55,034 nucleotides of DNA from Syntrophales bacterium (GTDB taxonomy: Bacteria > Desulfobacterota > Syntrophia > Syntrophales > UBA4778), in assembly GCA_028712885.1 (NCBI GenBank), contig JAQTPK010000015.1:1-55034 (forward strand), written 5' to 3'. The translations under genes were made by a program, and so were the position numbers. Shown here piece after piece: positions 34,964-42,041 of the stretch (the first letter of the stretch is position 1; each line of letters starts with the position of its first letter). The notes below the pieces were generated by a model. It was given only the letters and a program-made list of their open reading frames with translations. It was not told where the DNA came from and did not search any database.

Positions 34964-35704
34964 GTGCCGGAAATACTGGGCCAGATACAGCTTAACTGGG
35001 ATTTCGTTTTAGGTTTTTTAAGCATTGTTGTCATCGACCTGATTCTCGCGGGGGACAACGCCGTGGTCATCGCCATGGCAGTGAGGACCCTCCCGCGTGA
35101 GGAACGGAAAAAGGGGATTATTTTCGGGGCGGGTGCGGCGGTCATGCTCAGGGTCGTGCTGACCTTTTTTGCCGCGCAGCTTCTTCAGGTCCAGTTTGTC
35201 AAGTTTGTCGGTGGTTTGCTGATCATCTGGATCGGAATCAAGCTGTTTATCGAAGGTGTTCCGGACGAAGAGGTGCAGCGGGAGGCAAAGACCTTCTGGC
35301 AGGCGATCTGGGTGATAGTCGTCGCTGATATCACAATGTCTGTAGACAATGTCCTGGCGGTTGCCGGAGCTTCCGGGGGAAATCTCTTTCTCCTTATTTT
35401 CGGGCTGGGCCTGAGCATTCCTCTTGTAGTCTTTACGAGCAATCTTCTTTCCATGCTGATGGACAAGTACCCCATCATAATTTACATCGGGGCCGCCATC
35501 CTGGGAAGGGTCGGCGGGGAGATGATGATAACAGATCCCTTTATCAAGGAAATTTTGCATCCCACTGAGTTCCTGCAATACGGCGTGGAAATATTCTTTA
35601 CGGTCGGGGTAATCGTTGCCGGCAAGCTTTGGCTGCGCATGCAGCGGCAGCGCCAGGGGAAAATACCGGAAGTATGCGAAAACAATGAAAACCGAGGTGC
35701 ATAA
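34964..35704 (+). CDS. TerC family membrane protein
   Basis: A 246-aa integral membrane protein with about seven helices. The two TerC acidic motifs DLILAGDNAVVIAM and DITMSVDNVLAVAG are both intact; these Asp residues bind or move metal ions. Some TerC/Alx/YjbE-type proteins export Mn2+ or help metalate exoenzymes. GTG start preceded by GGAGAAAA. It overlaps the next gene by 1 base (TAATG), implying a single transcript with the kinase-like gene. Confidence 0.9.
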   Translation: MPEILGQIQLNWDFVLGFLSIVVIDLILAGDNAVVIAMAVRTLPREERKKGIIFGAGAAVMLRVVLTFFAAQLLQVQFVKFVGGLLIIWIGIKLFIEGVPDEEVQREAKTFWQAIWVIVVADITMSVDNVLAVAGASGGNLFLLIFGLGLSIPLVVFTSNLLSMLMDKYPIIIYIGAAILGRVGGEMMITDPFIKEILHPTEFLQYGVEIFFTVGVIVAGKLWLRMQRQRQGKIPEVCENNENRGA

Positions 35705-36507
35705 TGGCGGTATTGACCATATCCAGGGAATTCAGAAGCGGCTCTCAGGAAATAGGAAAGATGCTTGCCGATAAGGTGGGCTATACGTATATCGGAAAGG
35801 AGAGAATCCTGAGCGATATGCAGAGAGCGGGCGAACGGTGCGGGCAACTCCTGACGGATCTGGATGAAGCCGCCCCTTCCCTCTGGGAAAGATTCGACAA
35901 CGAATACAGGGGCTTCGTATCACTGATAGAGAGTTACATCTTCGATTATGCCTGGAGGGACCGGGCGATCATCGTAGGCAGAGGCGGCGCCCACCTCCTC
36001 TGCGACATACCTTTCGTCCTCCGGGTCCGGTTGAGCGCCCCGCTCGAGTACAGGATCGACCGGACGATGCGCGAAGACCAGGTGGACAAGGAAACAGCGA
36101 AGTGGATGGTCCAGACTGTAGACCGCAGGAGGGCGGGATATGTCCAGGCCAATTACGGCGTAGACTGGAACGACCAGCGCTGCTACGACATGATCTTCAA
36201 TACCGGCGTCCAGTCTCATGAGCTGATAACGGACATTCTGGCCAGCGCTTTAAAAGACCGGGACAGAAAGGTAACCCCTGAATGGAAAGAGGTTATCCTT
36301 GGGAGAAAAATTGCCGCCAAGATTCGCGCCTCCGCGTTCCTGGACCCCAAGCTGAATGTCCCAACGCTTCAGGTGGAATACGCAAAGGGGAGCCTGATTT
36401 TAAAAGGGACCGTCCACAGCCGGTCGGAATACGACAAAGTGGAAAAATTGGCAAAAAAACTGGCCAAGTCGATTCCGGTCTGCAATAACCTTCATTTCAG
36501 GAAATAA
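35704..36507 (+). CDS. Cytidylate-kinase-like protein with C-terminal BON domain
   Basis: A 267-aa protein. Residues ~1-190 match the cytidylate-kinase-like family: ISREFRSGSQEIGKMLADKVGYTYI at the P-loop position, IIVGRGGAHLL, and VLRVRLSAPLEYRIDR. The classical GxGxGKS P-loop is replaced by RSGSQEIGK as in this family. The last ~55 residues (LQVEYAKGSLILKGTVHSR) look like a BON domain, usually a lipid- or ligand-binding module. Biochemical activity is unknown. Confidence 0.8.
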   Translation: MAVLTISREFRSGSQEIGKMLADKVGYTYIGKERILSDMQRAGERCGQLLTDLDEAAPSLWERFDNEYRGFVSLIESYIFDYAWRDRAIIVGRGGAHLLCDIPFVLRVRLSAPLEYRIDRTMREDQVDKETAKWMVQTVDRRRAGYVQANYGVDWNDQRCYDMIFNTGVQSHELITDILASALKDRDRKVTPEWKEVILGRKIAAKIRASAFLDPKLNVPTLQVEYAKGSLILKGTVHSRSEYDKVEKLAKKLAKSIPVCNNLHFRK

Positions 36508-36525
36508 ATCCGGCAGCGCGCAAGG

Positions 36526-36581
36526 ATCATATTTAAGCATCTTCCTTAAGGATCGGAAGATGCTCCTGGGCCTGCTCCGGA
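36526..36581 (+). ncRNA. Candidate structured RNA element, copy 1 (upstream of oadG)
   Basis: A ~55-nt sequence that aligns with 41492-41545 at roughly 80% identity. GCATCTTCC (36537-36545) and GGAAGATGC (36555-36563) form a perfect 9-bp stem. A second stem-loop follows: CTCC-T-GGG-CCTG-CTC-C-GGAG. It begins 18 bases after the kinase-like gene and ends 129 bases before oadG. It may be a leader element, a 3'-end element or a dispersed repeat. Confidence 0.45.
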
Positions 36582-36710
36582 GAGCTTCAATAAACCTGAA
36601 CAAGCCACCCTTTTCTTTATATGGAAAAAATCAGGAAGAACAAGTGGTTGCTTATAGTTCTTGACTGGGGCGCATGTTTGTGCCACTTTGCGGCGCCCGG
36701 AGGATCTTAG

Positions 36711-36848
36711 ATGGATAAATTTACATTCGGAGTCACGATGACAGTCATAGGAATGGGCGGCACTCTGCTCAGCATCTGGCTGCTCAGCCTTGTCATAGAT
36801 CTTTTAAGACGTATATTCCCGTTCCGGGAATCCGAAAATAAGGAGTAG
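36711..36848 (+). CDS. oadG: Small OadG-like subunit of Na+-pumping decarboxylase
   Basis: A 45-aa single-helix peptide, MDKFTFGVTMTVIGMGGTLL, followed by SIWLLSLVIDLLRRIFPF and a charged tail. It has the size and layout of the gamma subunit of oxaloacetate/methylmalonyl-CoA/glutaconyl-CoA decarboxylases, which anchors the catalytic subunit at the membrane. GGAGGATCT provides a ribosome site 7 bases from the ATG. It is 3 bases upstream of the beta-subunit gene, confirming the call. Confidence 0.82.
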   Translation: MDKFTFGVTMTVIGMGGTLLSIWLLSLVIDLLRRIFPFRESENKE

Positions 36849-36851
36849 ACC

Positions 36852-37991
36852 GTGATTGATGCGTTACTGATGGGCCTGAACGGCCTTATAGTAGGACTCA
36901 CCAATCTTACGTTGCCCAATGTAATCATGATTTCTGCCGGCTGCGGCCTTCTGTATCTGGGGATAAAGAAGGATTACGAGCCGCTCTTGCTGATCCCGAT
37001 CGGTTTCGGGGCTATCCTCGTCAATATCCCCCTGGCCGGAATGATGGAGCCTGAAGGATTTCTCCGGTATTTTTATGATGCGGGCGTCCTGACAGAGATT
37101 TTCCCCTGCCTGATCTTCATCGGGATCGGGGCGATGACCGATTTCGGCCCCCTTCTGGAAAATCCGCGCATTCTGCTTCTCGGGGCGGCGGGTCAGTTCG
37201 GCATATTTCTTACCCTTCTGCTTGCCCTCATGCTCGGGTTCTCCTATCTGGATTCCGTGGCGATCGGAGTTATCGGTGCGTGCGACGGTCCCACCGCCAT
37301 TTACGTCACATCGAAGTACGCTCCCCATCTTCTGGGGGCGGTCTCCGTGGCGGCGTATTCCTACATGTCCCTTGTACCCCTGATCCAGCCTCCCATTATG
37401 CGTCTCCTCACCTCGGACCGTGAGCGCAAGATCGTCATGAAGTACGAGGGGAAGAAGGTTTCCAAGACTCTGAAGATAGTATTTCCGATCGCCGTAACGA
37501 TCGTCACGTGTCTGATAGCGCCGAAGGGAACGCCGCTGATGGGCATGATCATGCTGGGGAATCTTCTCCGGGAATCGGGCGTCGTTTCACGGCTGACCAA
37601 GTCCGCAGAAAATGAGATAGCTAACGTCGTCACCCTCCTGCTCGGACTGACGATCGGGGCGACCATGGAGGGTTCGGCGTTTCTGAAAGGACAAACCCTG
37701 CTCGTCCTCGGTCTCGGATTCCTGGCCATCTGCCTGGATACGGTTACCGGAGTCCTGTTCGGGAAACTCATGTGCTTCCTGTCGAGGGGCAAGGTGAATC
37801 CCCTGATCGGAGCGGCCGGCATTTCCGCCTATCCCATGGCGGCGAGGGTCGTCCAGGTCGAGGCGCGGAAATACAACAAACACAATCACCTTTTAATGCA
37901 TGCCATCGGGGCGAATACGGGAGGGCAGATCGGCTCGGTAATGGCGGCGGCGATCATGCTTTCGGTGCTGAAGGGGATGGGGCTGGGCTGA
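36852..37991 (+). CDS. oadB: Na+-translocating decarboxylase beta subunit
   Basis: A 379-aa membrane protein with about 9-11 helices. The family motifs are GIGAMTDFGPLL, with the essential Asp, IGVIGACDGPTAIYVTS and AAYSYMSLVPLIQPPIM, then GLTIGATMEG. It couples decarboxylation of a carboxybiotin intermediate to Na+ export. GTG start. The alpha (carboxyltransferase) and biotin subunits are not in the window, so the exact substrate cannot be told. The stop codon is followed directly by a GGGTATT array. Confidence 0.93.
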   Translation: MIDALLMGLNGLIVGLTNLTLPNVIMISAGCGLLYLGIKKDYEPLLLIPIGFGAILVNIPLAGMMEPEGFLRYFYDAGVLTEIFPCLIFIGIGAMTDFGPLLENPRILLLGAAGQFGIFLTLLLALMLGFSYLDSVAIGVIGACDGPTAIYVTSKYAPHLLGAVSVAAYSYMSLVPLIQPPIMRLLTSDRERKIVMKYEGKKVSKTLKIVFPIAVTIVTCLIAPKGTPLMGMIMLGNLLRESGVVSRLTKSAENEIANVVTLLLGLTIGATMEGSAFLKGQTLLVLGLGFLAICLDTVTGVLFGKLMCFLSRGKVNPLIGAAGISAYPMAARVVQVEARKYNKHNHLLMHAIGANTGGQIGSVMAAAIMLSVLKGMGLG

Positions 37992-37994
37992 AAT

Positions 37995-38112
37995 CAGGTA
38001 TTGGGTATTGGGTATCGGGTATCAGGTCCGAGGACAGCCCATCTCAGCATATCTCCTTGCGCCCCGCCCAATACCTAACACCCAGCATTCAAAATCCAAA
38101 ACCCAAAACCCC
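37995..38112. repeat. Heptamer array pair, GGGTATT/GGGTTTT family
   Basis: Five contiguous 7-mers at 37995-38029 (CAGGTAT, TGGGTAT twice, CGGGTAT, CAGGTCC). About six inverted units occupy 38068-38112 (AATACC and AAAACCC types). The element fills the 121-base gap between two convergent stop codons: three bases after the oadB stop and directly adjacent to the amrS stop (38113-38115). Confidence 0.88.
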
Positions 38113-39129
38113 TTAAAGTCCCACCCCGGCGATTTCCGTGGCGCACCTCGGGCATTTTCCATCCCGGATCACGTTTTTAAGGACGGAAAAACCGCTGCGC
38201 TGTACGAGCAGCATGCCGCAGTGAGGGCACTTTGTGTCATTTCCCTTGCCGGGTACGTTGCCGAGATACACAAACTGCAGGCCGGCCTCCCTGCCGATGT
38301 CGTAAGCCCTCTCGAGGATGCCGACGGGAGTGGCATTCCGCTCTTCCATCCTGTATTGAGGATGGAAACGGCTGACGTGCCAGGGAATGCCGCGATCGAC
38401 GCCGGAGATAAACTCCGCAATGTCTTTTATCTCCTCCTCGGAATCGTTGAGACCGGGAACGATCAGCGTCGTCACTTCGATCCATATTCCTGTTTTTTTC
38501 ATGAGCTTTATGCTGTCCAGGACGGGCGCGAGGCGCCCTTTGCAGATTCTTTTGTAATAACCGTCGCGAAAAGATTTGAGATCGACATTGGCCGCGTGCA
38601 GGAAGCCGTTATACAGGGAAAGCATCTCCGCGGTCATGTACCCGTTCGTGACGAATACGTTATCCAGTCCTTCCTTTCGGGCCGATTGCGAGATCTCGTA
38701 GGCGAATTCGAAGAAAATCGTGGGTTCGGTATAGGTGTAGGAAATGCTCCGGCACCGGGTCTGCCGGGCCTGGGCGACCACGTCTTCAACGCGCGCCGCG
38801 CGGGGCTTCAGTCCCAGGTCGCGCGCCTCTCCCACCTGGGAAATCTGCCAGTTCTGGCAGAAATCGCAGCGGAAATTGCACCCGATTGCCGCAATGGAGT
38901 AGGAATAAGTGCCGGGATGAAAATGGTACAGAGGTTTTTTTTCGATGGGGTCTATATTCTGGGCGATCAATTCGCCGTATGCATGAGTATAGAGGATGCC
39001 TGCCCGGTTTTCCCGTACGCCGCAGATGCCGAAACCCCCGTCGGATATCTTGCAGCGGTGACTGCATAAAAAGCAGGAGACTTTATTCCCGTCCGATTTT
39101 TTATACAGCAGCGCTTCCTTCAGGACCAT
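38113..39129 (-). CDS. amrS: AmmeMemoRadiSam system radical SAM enzyme
   Basis: A 338-aa radical SAM protein. The cluster motif CNFRCDFC places Cys at 84, 88 and 91. N-terminal Cys pairs (CFLCSHRC, GICGVRE) and a C-terminal CPHC...CPRC zinc ribbon are also present. The pattern IDPIEKKPLYHFHPGT is diagnostic of the AmrS/PflA-like group. The usual partners AMMECR1 and Memo are not in this window. Activity is unproven for the family, although it resembles pyruvate-formate-lyase activases. Confidence 0.9.
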   Translation of the reverse strand: MVLKEALLYKKSDGNKVSCFLCSHRCKISDGGFGICGVRENRAGILYTHAYGELIAQNIDPIEKKPLYHFHPGTYSYSIAAIGCNFRCDFCQNWQISQVGEARDLGLKPRAARVEDVVAQARQTRCRSISYTYTEPTIFFEFAYEISQSARKEGLDNVFVTNGYMTAEMLSLYNGFLHAANVDLKSFRDGYYKRICKGRLAPVLDSIKLMKKTGIWIEVTTLIVPGLNDSEEEIKDIAEFISGVDRGIPWHVSRFHPQYRMEERNATPVGILERAYDIGREAGLQFVYLGNVPGKGNDTKCPHCGMLLVQRSGFSVLKNVIRDGKCPRCATEIAGVGL

Positions 39130-39276
39130 GTCGCCCCACCGGCAGTGGAAAGCATTAAACCCCGTTTTTTACAAGGAAAACACAGCCTATTTTTTTTTGC
39201 AACGGAAATTCCGGACTGTTTCCGCCCGCGGTATTGCGGTCAATTGTGAATGGGACGGCAATGGGCAGCGGACCTG

Positions 39277-40896
39277 CTACAGACCGGAGGAGACGACTCC
39301 CTCCGCCCGGATCTCATGCATGTATTCGGCGATGTTCTCGCAATGATCCGATATCCGCTCGAGGTTTACGAGCATCTCAATGAAAATGGGACCCGCCTCC
39401 GCCTGGCATATCCTTCGATGAAACCTCTCCAGGTGTTTCTCCCTTGCCTGCCGGACGATGCGGTCTATTTCCTTTTCCCGATCGGAGATCATGACGATCG
39501 CTTCCTCGCCCCATGCGTCCACCAGTTTTTCGGCGTCCTCCATGTTCCTCGCCACCAGCAGGCGGATCTCATGCAGCTCCATCATGCCCATTACGGAAAA
39601 TTGAATATCTCTCCGGTGCTTCTGGTGGGCCAGCTCGACAAGGTTGACCGAATGGTCCCCTATCCTCTCAATATCGTCCGCCATGGCCGTATACGAAAAG
39701 AGCTTTTTGGAATTTTCAGCCGACAGCTCCCGGCAGGAGAGCTTCCAGAGATAATTCACGATCTCCGTGCGCAGATTATCGAGGGCGGGCTCAAGATAGA
39801 GTACGTTGCGGCACTTGCCCGAATCGTAGGTTTCGGCGGCCTCCATCGCCTCGTCGGACATCTTCCTTGCAAGTCTGATCGTCCGGGTCATTTCCATCCG
39901 CACGCTTTTGAGCGCTTTTTCCGGATCGGTTATGAGCCGGGGATCGAGATACTCGGGCCACAGCGCGATAATCGATTCACGGCCGGGGATGATTCTCTCG
40001 ATCAGTCTTGCCACCGGACCGAGCACCGGGAGGAAAGCGGCGGCGATGAACACATTGAGAAAAAAGTGCCCCAGGGCGATCTGCTGGGCGGTATTTGCCG
40101 AAATGGTTTTCAGCAGGGCGATGAACAGGGGAAAAAACGGCAGGACCAGTCCGACGCCGGCGAGCTTGAAAAAGAAATGGGCGGCGGCCGTCCTTCTGCC
40201 GCTGATCCCGGCCGTCAGCCCGGCCAGCAGGACCGTAACTGTCGTCCCTATGTTTGCCCCGAACACTATCGGCAGTGCGGTTTCAATCGTCACCAGATCC
40301 TGCTGGGCCATGACTGCGAGAATGCTGATCGGCACCGCGGAGGCATGGATGAGAGCGGTTATGACCAGGCCGACGCCGAATCCGATCAGGGGGTTCGCCG
40401 CCTGGCTGAGCAGAATACCGGCTCCTTGCTCTTTCAGGGGCGCCGCCGCCTGGCCGGTCATTTCCAGGCCGAAGAACATCAGACCGAAATAGAAGAGGAG
40501 CTCTCCGGCTCTTTTCCCTTTCTCTTTTCCCGACAGCCAGAAAATGCTTCCCGCTACGATAAATGCGGGAGACAGGGCGGTCACTTTCCAGACAACGAGC
40601 TGGACGGTAACCGTCGTTCCGATATCGGCGCCGAGGAGGATCCCGAGCGAGTGGTAGAAACTGATGAGTCCGGCGCTGACGATCCCCACGGTGATGACGG
40701 TGGACGCCGTGCTGCTCTGAAGCAGGATGGTGGTTGTGAGCCCTACGAGCAGGCCGCTTAACTGGCGGCCGACCGCATATCTGATGTATTCCCGGATGCG
40801 GGCCGTCAGCAGCTGCCTGACTGTTTCGCCCAATCTGACGAGACCGATAAGGAAAAGGGCCATGCCTGTCAGGAAGAGAATTATTTCGGACCACAT
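39277..40896 (-). CDS. Na/Pi cotransporter with PhoU-like domain
   Basis: A 539-aa NptA-family transporter. Two inverted repeats of the Na/Pi-cotransporter domain contain the paired motifs LTTTILLQSSTASTVITVG and GLVITALIHASAVPISIL, each with a QSS/HAS signature. About eight helices are followed by a cytoplasmic PhoU-like helical domain (about 340-530). Likely imports or exports phosphate with Na+. The upstream region contains a short GGGCTAA hairpin. Confidence 0.92.
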   Translation of the reverse strand: MWSEIILFLTGMALFLIGLVRLGETVRQLLTARIREYIRYAVGRQLSGLLVGLTTTILLQSSTASTVITVGIVSAGLISFYHSLGILLGADIGTTVTVQLVVWKVTALSPAFIVAGSIFWLSGKEKGKRAGELLFYFGLMFFGLEMTGQAAAPLKEQGAGILLSQAANPLIGFGVGLVITALIHASAVPISILAVMAQQDLVTIETALPIVFGANIGTTVTVLLAGLTAGISGRRTAAAHFFFKLAGVGLVLPFFPLFIALLKTISANTAQQIALGHFFLNVFIAAAFLPVLGPVARLIERIIPGRESIIALWPEYLDPRLITDPEKALKSVRMEMTRTIRLARKMSDEAMEAAETYDSGKCRNVLYLEPALDNLRTEIVNYLWKLSCRELSAENSKKLFSYTAMADDIERIGDHSVNLVELAHQKHRRDIQFSVMGMMELHEIRLLVARNMEDAEKLVDAWGEEAIVMISDREKEIDRIVRQAREKHLERFHRRICQAEAGPIFIEMLVNLERISDHCENIAEYMHEIRAEGVVSSGL

Positions 40897-40911
40897 AATC
40901 GCCTCTGGATG

Positions 40912-40972
40912 GGGCTAAGGGCTAAAGACAAAGGATAGCACGGGCATAAGAAACGTCTTTTGCCCTTAGCCA
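40912..40972. repeat. Heptamer array hairpin, GGGCTAA family
   Basis: GGGCTAA twice and AGACAAA at 40912-40932, and inverted TTTGCCC and TTAGCCA at 959-972. Bases 40913-40929 pair with 40955-40971 over 17 positions with one mismatch. The same word class makes the larger array at 48.5 kb. Confidence 0.83.
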
Positions 40973-41077
40973 TAATGTCCAGCTTTTACCCGGTTTCCGC
41001 GGATAATTCAATCTCCCGTCCTGGAAATCTTAATCTGAAAAAGGCATTCCGGAATTATCGTGCGGGTTTCTTCTTTC

Positions 41078-41106
41078 TTGAATCCATGCCGGGTTTCCGT
41101 TATGAT
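41078..41106 (+). promoter_or_regulatory. Sigma-70 promoter for the 59-aa protein gene
   Basis: TTGAAT at 41078-41083, a 17-base spacer, TATGAT at 41101-41106. The predicted start lies about 25 bases upstream of the gene's ATG, leaving room for the AAGGAG ribosome site. It is the best promoter match seen in the window. Confidence 0.72.
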
Positions 41107-41135
41107 TTTTAATATAGCAGAAAGGAGATTTATTC

Positions 41136-41315
41136 ATGTCGAAAGTCATGCCGGAAGGAGAGGATCTGAGAAAGGCGGTCAAGTGGATATCATTTCAGCT
41201 TGAGGACGGTTCCGGCAAGCCGTTGAACAAGCTTATCGAACAGGCGGTATTCACATTCGACCTCTCGCCGAAGGACGCCGAGTATCTGATGTCCTTTTTC
41301 AAAGGGCGAAAATAG
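41136..41315 (+). CDS. Conserved-looking 59-aa protein, function unknown
   Basis: Begins MSKVMPEGEDLRKAVKWISF and ends in the short motif FDLSPKDAEYLMSFF. AAGGAG lies 8 bases before the ATG and a good promoter precedes it, so expression is likely. It is acidic to neutral, mostly helical and has no membrane segment. I believe similar short proteins with KAVKWIS and FDLSPKDxE(F/Y)L exist in other Desulfobacterota, but could not check. The gap after it (41316-41591) holds a candidate structured RNA but no gene. Confidence 0.75.
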   Translation: MSKVMPEGEDLRKAVKWISFQLEDGSGKPLNKLIEQAVFTFDLSPKDAEYLMSFFKGRK

Positions 41316-41491
41316 GAATACCCGCCCGATCCGGTTTCTTTGAAGCGGCGCGGACAAGGCGTTCGACCGGCCGTTGCTCCCGCCGGATTCCGCCCGTCCA
41401 AAGTTATCTCCCCTCCGGAGAGGGACCGGGCGGCTTGAATCCGGCAGCGACCGTAATCCCGGCCGCCTCGGCGGAAGGGATCAGCGAGCGA

Positions 41492-41560
41492 ATCATGTTT
41501 TTAGCATTTCCCTTAAGATCGGAGATCTCCTGAGCTTGCTCCGGATTGTCTCCGATTTTT
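41492..41560 (+). ncRNA. Candidate structured RNA element, copy 2, with terminator-like fold (upstream of uspA-like gene)
   Basis: Related to 36526-36581. ATTTCC and GGAGAT can pair as in copy 1. Alternatively ATCGGAGA (41518-41525) pairs perfectly with TCTCCGAT (41549-41556), enclosing the conserved TCC-GAG-CTTG-CTC-GGA hairpin and followed by TTTT. The two folds compete for GGAGA. It ends about 32 bases before the universal stress gene, so an attenuator is possible; simple termination of upstream transcription is the alternative. Confidence 0.45.
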
Positions 41561-41591: not shown

Positions 41592-42041
41592 ATGTTCAGC
41601 CCGAAACATATCCTTGTGCCTTCGGATTTTTCGGACCATTCGGATCAGGCATTGATCCTGGCCAGAGACATTGCCCTTCAGTTTCATTCAAAAATTCATC
41701 TTCTTCATGTCATCGATGAAAAAATACAGCAATGCGCCGTCGATTACTGCCTTGACATCGGCACGGTCGAGCGGTTCCGCAGCGAAGCCCGGGACGTTTC
41801 CGGCAAGAAACTGCGGGAGGAGCTGGATCGGATCGGCGACGGCATTGAAGTCGCGATTGAGGTGCGCGAGGGATCTCCTCACGAGGAAATCGCCAAAGTG
41901 CAGCATGAAAAGGGTATTGATCTGGTCGTAATCGGTTCGCGGGGAAAGTCGGGAATCAGGGGTCATGTCGGCAGCGTTACGGAGAAGGTGATGCGGTTGG
42001 CCGGCTGTCCCGTTCTGCTTGTAGGGGCCCGGTCGACCTGA
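41592..42041 (+). CDS. Universal stress protein (UspA family)
   Basis: A 149-aa Usp domain: HILVPSDFSDHSDQALILARDIA at the N-terminus and the ATP-binding signature IGSRGKSGIRGHVGSVTEKVMR with the G-2x-G-9x-G(S) spacing. The central HLLHVIDEK strand is typical. Likely an ATP-binding stress protein. AGGAGG is present about 8 bases before the ATG. The YtpB-like gene follows 27 bases later. Confidence 0.93.
   Translation: MFSPKHILVPSDFSDHSDQALILARDIALQFHSKIHLLHVIDEKIQQCAVDYCLDIGTVERFRSEARDVSGKKLREELDRIGDGIEVAIEVREGSPHEEIAKVQHEKGIDLVVIGSRGKSGIRGHVGSVTEKVMRLAGCPVLLVGARST

Follow-up and report, generated by a model that had tools for sequence, protein, structure and literature searches.

Two similar segments of the window (the whole 55,034-nt stretch of Syntrophales DNA that was analyzed) are almost certainly copies of a dispersed mobile element and not riboswitches. 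On our reading as a whole, to which we assign a probability of about 0.62, they are old copies of a gene-free, non-autonomous element of approximately 119 nt whose ends resemble those of IS200/IS605 elements and which is comparable to PATE or REP sequences. Analogy with these elements slightly favors the view that it moves as a folded single strand by an IS200/IS605-like mechanism. The initial annotation, made from the letters alone, had offered a riboswitch-like leader, a small RNA or a dispersed hairpin; the last of these was correct, in the sense of a mobile, multi-copy family.

The element in the window and its fold

Whole-length alignment of the segments at 36526-36581 and 41492-41545 reproduced the reported identity of about 80%, with a few 1-nt gaps, and their local score of 56 was far above the maxima for about 5,000 random segments of the window (24) and for 2,000 shuffles (23). 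The segments are thus real, but their bounds had been drawn too narrowly; they represent the 3′ part of the approximately 119-nt element, the full copies of which are listed in Table 1. Both copies were matched by R2, an independent second covariance model built without either of them.

Table 1 Element copies, their parts and the adjoining genes in the window
Feature	Position	Strand	Evidence
Element copy 1, 87 nt, left hairpin deleted	36505..36591	+	R2, E = 1.3e-7
Copy 1, helix P1: ATCC 36508-36511 / GGAT 36550-36553	36508..36553	+	Direct reading; family covariation
Copy 1, right hairpin HP2, base GAAG...CTTC	36556..36588	+	
Copy 1, 9-bp stem GCATCTTCC/GGAAGATGC of the initial annotation, this copy only	36537..36563	+	
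Element copy 2, 121 nt, full length, diverged	41436..41556	+	R2, E = 1.8e-11
Copy 2, left hairpin HP1, TCCC...GGGA, inner palindrome CCGCC/GGCGG	41457..41480	+	Direct reading
Copy 2, right hairpin HP2, holding the 8-bp stem ATCGGAGA/TCTCCGAT of the initial annotation	41518..41556	+	
Downstream neighbor of copy 1: OadG-related small transporter subunit, outside the element	36711..36848	+	NF040909, E = 2.8e-11
Downstream neighbor of copy 2: universal stress protein, outside the element	41592..42041	+	

Both stems described for the segments are present in the sequence, and neither has the role suggested for it. The 9-bp stem is not a family feature, being confined to copy 1, and that of 8 bp in copy 2 forms the base of HP2, the family's right hairpin, not an attenuator. 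The TTTT that had been attached to the latter belongs to the flank, and no conserved T-tract follows the element, since TTTT stands directly after CTTCAA in only 3 of 114 copies. The proposal of a structured, covarying sequence held, but the helices that covary are others than the two stems that had been thought to compete. At the left end of copy 1, the ORF 35704-36507 closes with a TAA stop codon that is the first triplet of the element (TAA replacing TGA), which is a local consequence of the insertion. Intergenic short repeats (ATTGGGTATTGGGTATCGGG; CAAAATCCAAAACCCAAAACCCC) were also observed in the window at 38000-38110, 3′ of an oadB-like gene.

Copies read from the genome of the window share a unit of 95–134 nt that starts with TGAATCCGG and ends with CTTCAAT. 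The family layout, derived from a contig pattern scan and from copies of order-mates, consists of a left part, TTGAA^NNN.. AGCGAGCGCATT [HP1: CCCCGC..GCGGGG] TWAGCGAGCGAA and an A-rich linker, and a right part, TTCCTTA, N′N′N′ T C GAAG ATT [HP2] AGC TTCAA^T, with sharp ends at TTGAA^...CTTCAA^T (^ marks the element boundary). The fold comprises two subterminal hairpins, HP1 and HP2, one at each end and on the same strand, together with a short helix, P1, in which the first bases after TGA pair with those preceding GAAG, so that the 5′ end is tied to the foot of the right hairpin; GAAG itself, at the foot of HP2, pairs with CTTC at the right end. CTTCAA terminates the near-identical copies in genomes G066, G420 and G127 as well as the family copies. 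No plain left guide was seen 5′ of the left hairpin, the first element bases being paired elsewhere, in P1.

The sequence of P1 differs among lineages while its pairing is kept (TCC/GGA, TTC/GAA, CTG/CAG, CCG/CGG, AATG/CATT and TCTG/CAGA, and CAGG/CCTG in G066). Among 28 diverse copies, changes on both sides were found at three of the four P1 pairs, a count lowered by a few rows lying one base off in the structure-blind MAFFT alignment, and at 6 of the 13 HP2 pairs. The covariation score was 0.278, compared with 0.139 in shuffles, none of the 500 of which scored as high, and with at most 0.105 in slid controls. G-T cells outnumbered A-C cells on the top strand by 43 to 13, which points to the top strand as the folded one; the ratio is rough, because shifted 3′ ends account for part of the G-T count.

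HP1 is missing in copy 1, at locus L011, and in genome G042 at a site orthologous to one in G017, and the lost segment was located between its flanking AGCGAGCG direct repeats, before which variable bases stand. At six loci (L164, L179, L156, L128, L008 and L012), foreign short palindromes (TCCCGAT..ATCGGGA, GTCCGCC..GGCGGAC and similar ones) replace or extend the hairpin loops, as though palindromic elements inserted into each other. A tandem pair of elements, the first truncated at its right hairpin, was observed at G000:C34:18935-19111 (L014, L018).

Distribution and evidence for mobility

Genome-wide DNA search with either segment found further copies, and a first covariance model (R1) gave about 20 clear copies with unrelated surroundings in the genome of the window (in 39 rows, where several entries were the reverse strand of a hairpin already listed). 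The richest carrier, the order-mate G012, contained at least 118 copies, and two complete chromosomes gave 24 and 12 matches. At a strict cut-off, 24 of 395 Desulfobacterota genomes were carriers; this survey scored nine candidates per genome, so that its copy numbers are floors. An exact 41-nt pattern occurred in Desulfobacterota and, among the matches listed, in at least five Nitrospirota MAGs, which had a variant of their own (TGAATCCAGG..GGATCGAAG). The element was absent from both family-mates searched, and its patchy occurrence fits mobility. Plasmid and phage collections gave no element match and viral contigs gave 0. Rfam 15 gave nothing at the element, either in the window or, as an E-value listing, at ten loci that hold intact copies, and no earlier description of it was found in Rfam or in the literature searched.

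The flanks of 100 copies revealed a nearly invariant TGAA and CTTCAA, the former in all but one copy. Outside these motifs, the composition equaled background except for T at -1 (63%) and at +1 (79%); because the search pattern required TGA and TTCAA, the weight lies on this background composition and not on the motifs. G066 contained nine near-identical 120-nt copies in nine unrelated flanks, all with TTGAA...CTTCAAT, and about 26 long matches in approximately 1.17 Mb; recent amplification in at least one genome is shown. In the genus of G017, two insertions were lacking in both G041 and G043. Empty site 1 in G041 reads GGTTTGAA^TAAAGAGG compared with GGTTTCAA^TTCGG...CTTCAA^TAAAGAGG when filled, and empty site 2 in G041 reads TTTCCGAA^TTGAACC compared with TTTCTGAA^TTCGG...CTTCAA^TTAAGCC. 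No target duplication was found at these two orthologous empty sites.

The simplest reading of the junction sequences is that TGAA would be host sequence, 3′ of which the element is added. The sites agree with this reading without proving it: three of the four sequences at empty sites (TGAA, TGGA, CGAA and TTAA) deviate from TGAA by 1–2 bases, and the filled copy at site 1 reads TCAA in its place. The initial annotation had set a mobile repeat with target duplications against its regulatory reading; a mobile repeat was found, with the duplications absent. Covariance-model search combined with inspection of the neighbors of the matches revealed that pairing is conserved and gene context is not.

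Mechanism of movement and alternative explanations

The element has TTGAA at the left, TTCAA at the right and, beside the right hairpin, GAAG; it thus resembles a Y1 transposon that consists of its ends alone. In the mechanism that we propose by analogy, the hairpins would be bound by a Y1 (HUH) transposase acting in trans. Cleavage would follow host TTGAA at the left end and CTTCAA at the right end; the two ends would then be joined to a circle, to be inserted 3′ of a further TTGAA^T. The right guide would be the GAAG at the base of HP2, through its pairing with CTTC, and the left end would be kept next to it by P1. In G012, the top strand follows the GC skew (57:19, p=1.5e-5) and not the gene strand, that is, it lies in the leading-strand sense and hence in the lagging-strand template; the reading is indirect, since the strands were counted by hand, each contig contributed one or two 20-kb windows to the skew, and gene strand itself is correlated with replication. 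The young copies of G066 exhibited no such bias (top strand versus replication, 12:14).

The Y1_Tnp model gave no match in the genome of the window, in G012 or in G047, so the enzyme may have been lost after the spread, may escape the Pfam model, may lie in missing sequence or may be of another kind. Given this result and the divergence of its copies, those in the genome of the window are probably fossils. No Y1_Tnp partner emerged by presence, proximity or shared ends: Y1 presence does not track element presence, the flanks of 30 Y1 loci held no element matches, a full element lay within 1.5 kb at 2 of 28 further Y1 loci (about chance by a rough estimate), and the IS200 elements of carriers, judged by eye, end differently. 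A search for a longer, autonomous version, with a gene separating HP1 from HP2, was negative; the one candidate proved to be two adjacent copies on either side of an ordinary gene. The sole Y1 match in G017, a RAYT-like gene at L103:1417-2253, has inverted GGGGTCGGACC..AAGTTAAGTATTT repeats on both sides that could be the REP of this gene, and its protein was discarded as a partner because it is bordered by these GGGGTCGGACC repeats of its own. At L360:13021-13552 (contig C38 of G066), a disrupted RAYT-like gene of the same kind as that at L103 begins about 150 bp after an element copy, which may be a coincidence.

Movement of the dispersed element by an enzyme other than Y1, such as an IS91-like rolling-circle HUH or another transposase for which TTGAA/TTCAA would be short inverted ends, is possible though unlikely. 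Two rich carriers have no Y1 gene, the ends TTGAA and TTCAA are complementary, and the element and Y1 do not co-occur, all as this alternative would have it; however, the absence of target duplication, the subterminal hairpins, the strand-specific fold, the TCAA right end and the guide-like GAAG suit Y1. Rather doubtful is a further proposal, that the element belongs to another, previously unnamed class of single-strand mobile element, spread over two phyla by a novel enzyme. Its internal strand NNNT-C-GAAG would pair with both ends simultaneously, by a helix free to co-evolve on the left and by GAAG:CTTC on the right, and both cut sites would be held together without an IS608-type left guide.

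Compensatory changes and one-strand G-U pairs would also be expected of a family of small RNA genes, or of an mRNA-stabilizing structure, kept at the RNA level and spread by duplication. The same covariation is explained by folding of single-stranded DNA, however, and copies occur in both orientations between genes, some overlap predicted ORFs, and their patchiness among the 395 genomes and precise insertion likewise make this explanation improbable. A further candidate is a domesticated chromosomal repeat, REP/BIME-like in protein binding or at transcript ends, whose mobility is long past: the copies in the genome of the window are indeed old and diverged and those in G012 mostly intergenic, but the element has spread recently in both G066 and the genus of G017, and its location is not conserved, which leaves this reading quite improbable.

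The elements between co-directional genes in the G012 and G017 stretches were oriented 16 with and 13 against the genes (p = 0.71), and no neighbor gene was conserved among copies. A riboswitch, attenuator or 5′ leader for ion and stress genes, suggested by the position of both window copies upstream of a gene, by the structured, covarying fold and by the perfect stem plus T that ends copy 2, therefore fails for want of an orientation preference, a conserved neighbor and a T-tract, and with clean empty sites, no Rfam family and near-identical copies at unrelated places it can practically be discarded. The oadG-like and usp genes are neighbors by chance, and any effect on either is incidental. 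A systematic role of the element TGA as a stop codon was also rejected, because it ended a gene (at least 100 open codons) in 14 of 131 copies, a weak excess over the 9 and 5 of the control frames. At L232:18180-18450, an element copy stands after a gene that by eye resembles one for signal recognition particle RNA; the differences of the genus-mates G041 and G043 at this place extend beyond the element.

Relation to known elements and significance

IS608 inserts 3′ of TTAC, which is kept in its left flank, and its right end, TCAA, is recognized by GAAT, a guide that lies 5′ of its right hairpin (PMC5934647); ISDra2 uses the target TTGAT without target duplication (PMC8612924). Like both, the element has a folded top strand and, on a reading that rests on few empty sites, goes in 3′ of an invariant short target, TTGAA, that remains on its left side; it shares with IS608 the TCAA right end and a GAA- guide 5′ of the right hairpin (GAAG in the element). 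It differs from both in having no tnpA/tnpB, and a left guide was not found at the IS608 position.

PATEs (palindrome-associated transposable elements) of Haloquadratum have subterminal palindromes, no gene, no target duplication and many copies; they undergo repeat-mediated deletion of the core, have other small palindromic elements inserted in their palindromes, and spread though intact TnpA genes are nearly absent (PMC3119063). The element is similar in its lack of genes and of target duplication, its palindromes near both ends, its many copies, its deletion between internal repeats, the foreign palindromes in its hairpins and its spread without an obvious intact TnpA. Unlike PATEs, it occurs in Desulfobacterota and Nitrospirota, its ends are joined by the covarying P1, both hairpins lie within 119 nt, and a parental IS605 element was not recognized.

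REP, BIME and REPIN sequences with TnpA_REP (RAYT) share with the element a high copy number, hairpins and non-autonomy. In contrast to them, the element has no GTAG/CGTC tag, measures 119 nt as against 20–65, is a composite conserved across two phyla and exhibits no RAYT association. Identity with a GTAG/CGTC-tagged REP, which carries its tag at the hairpin foot and spans 20–40 bp (PMC3733652), was rejected on account of the variable bases before AGCGAGCG and the 119-nt length. A MITE was likewise rejected, because the terminal inverted repeats are only the 5-nt TTGAA/TTCAA and there is no duplication. The target of ERIC sequences is TA. By description, not by sequence, the element is like the 127-bp ERIC or RU-1 of enterobacteria (PMC2759123) in its similar length, intergenic location and MITE-like nature as a small mobile sequence, but neither a long terminal inverted repeat nor a duplication of TA was seen in it.

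The existence of many-copy genomes without a matching transposase is a puzzle that the element raises. The finding itself is ordinary, a repeat and not a regulator, and the element moderately interesting: it is apparently unnamed, cross-phylum and strand-folded, with a covarying end-joining helix, P1, of a kind not described for IS200/IS605 in the portions of the literature compared. Covariance search alone would show excellent covariation, since the mark left by single-stranded DNA that folds is the same as that of RNA. A recurring hairpin repeat of Desulfobacterota and Nitrospirota, otherwise readable as a regulatory RNA, is thus given an explanation.
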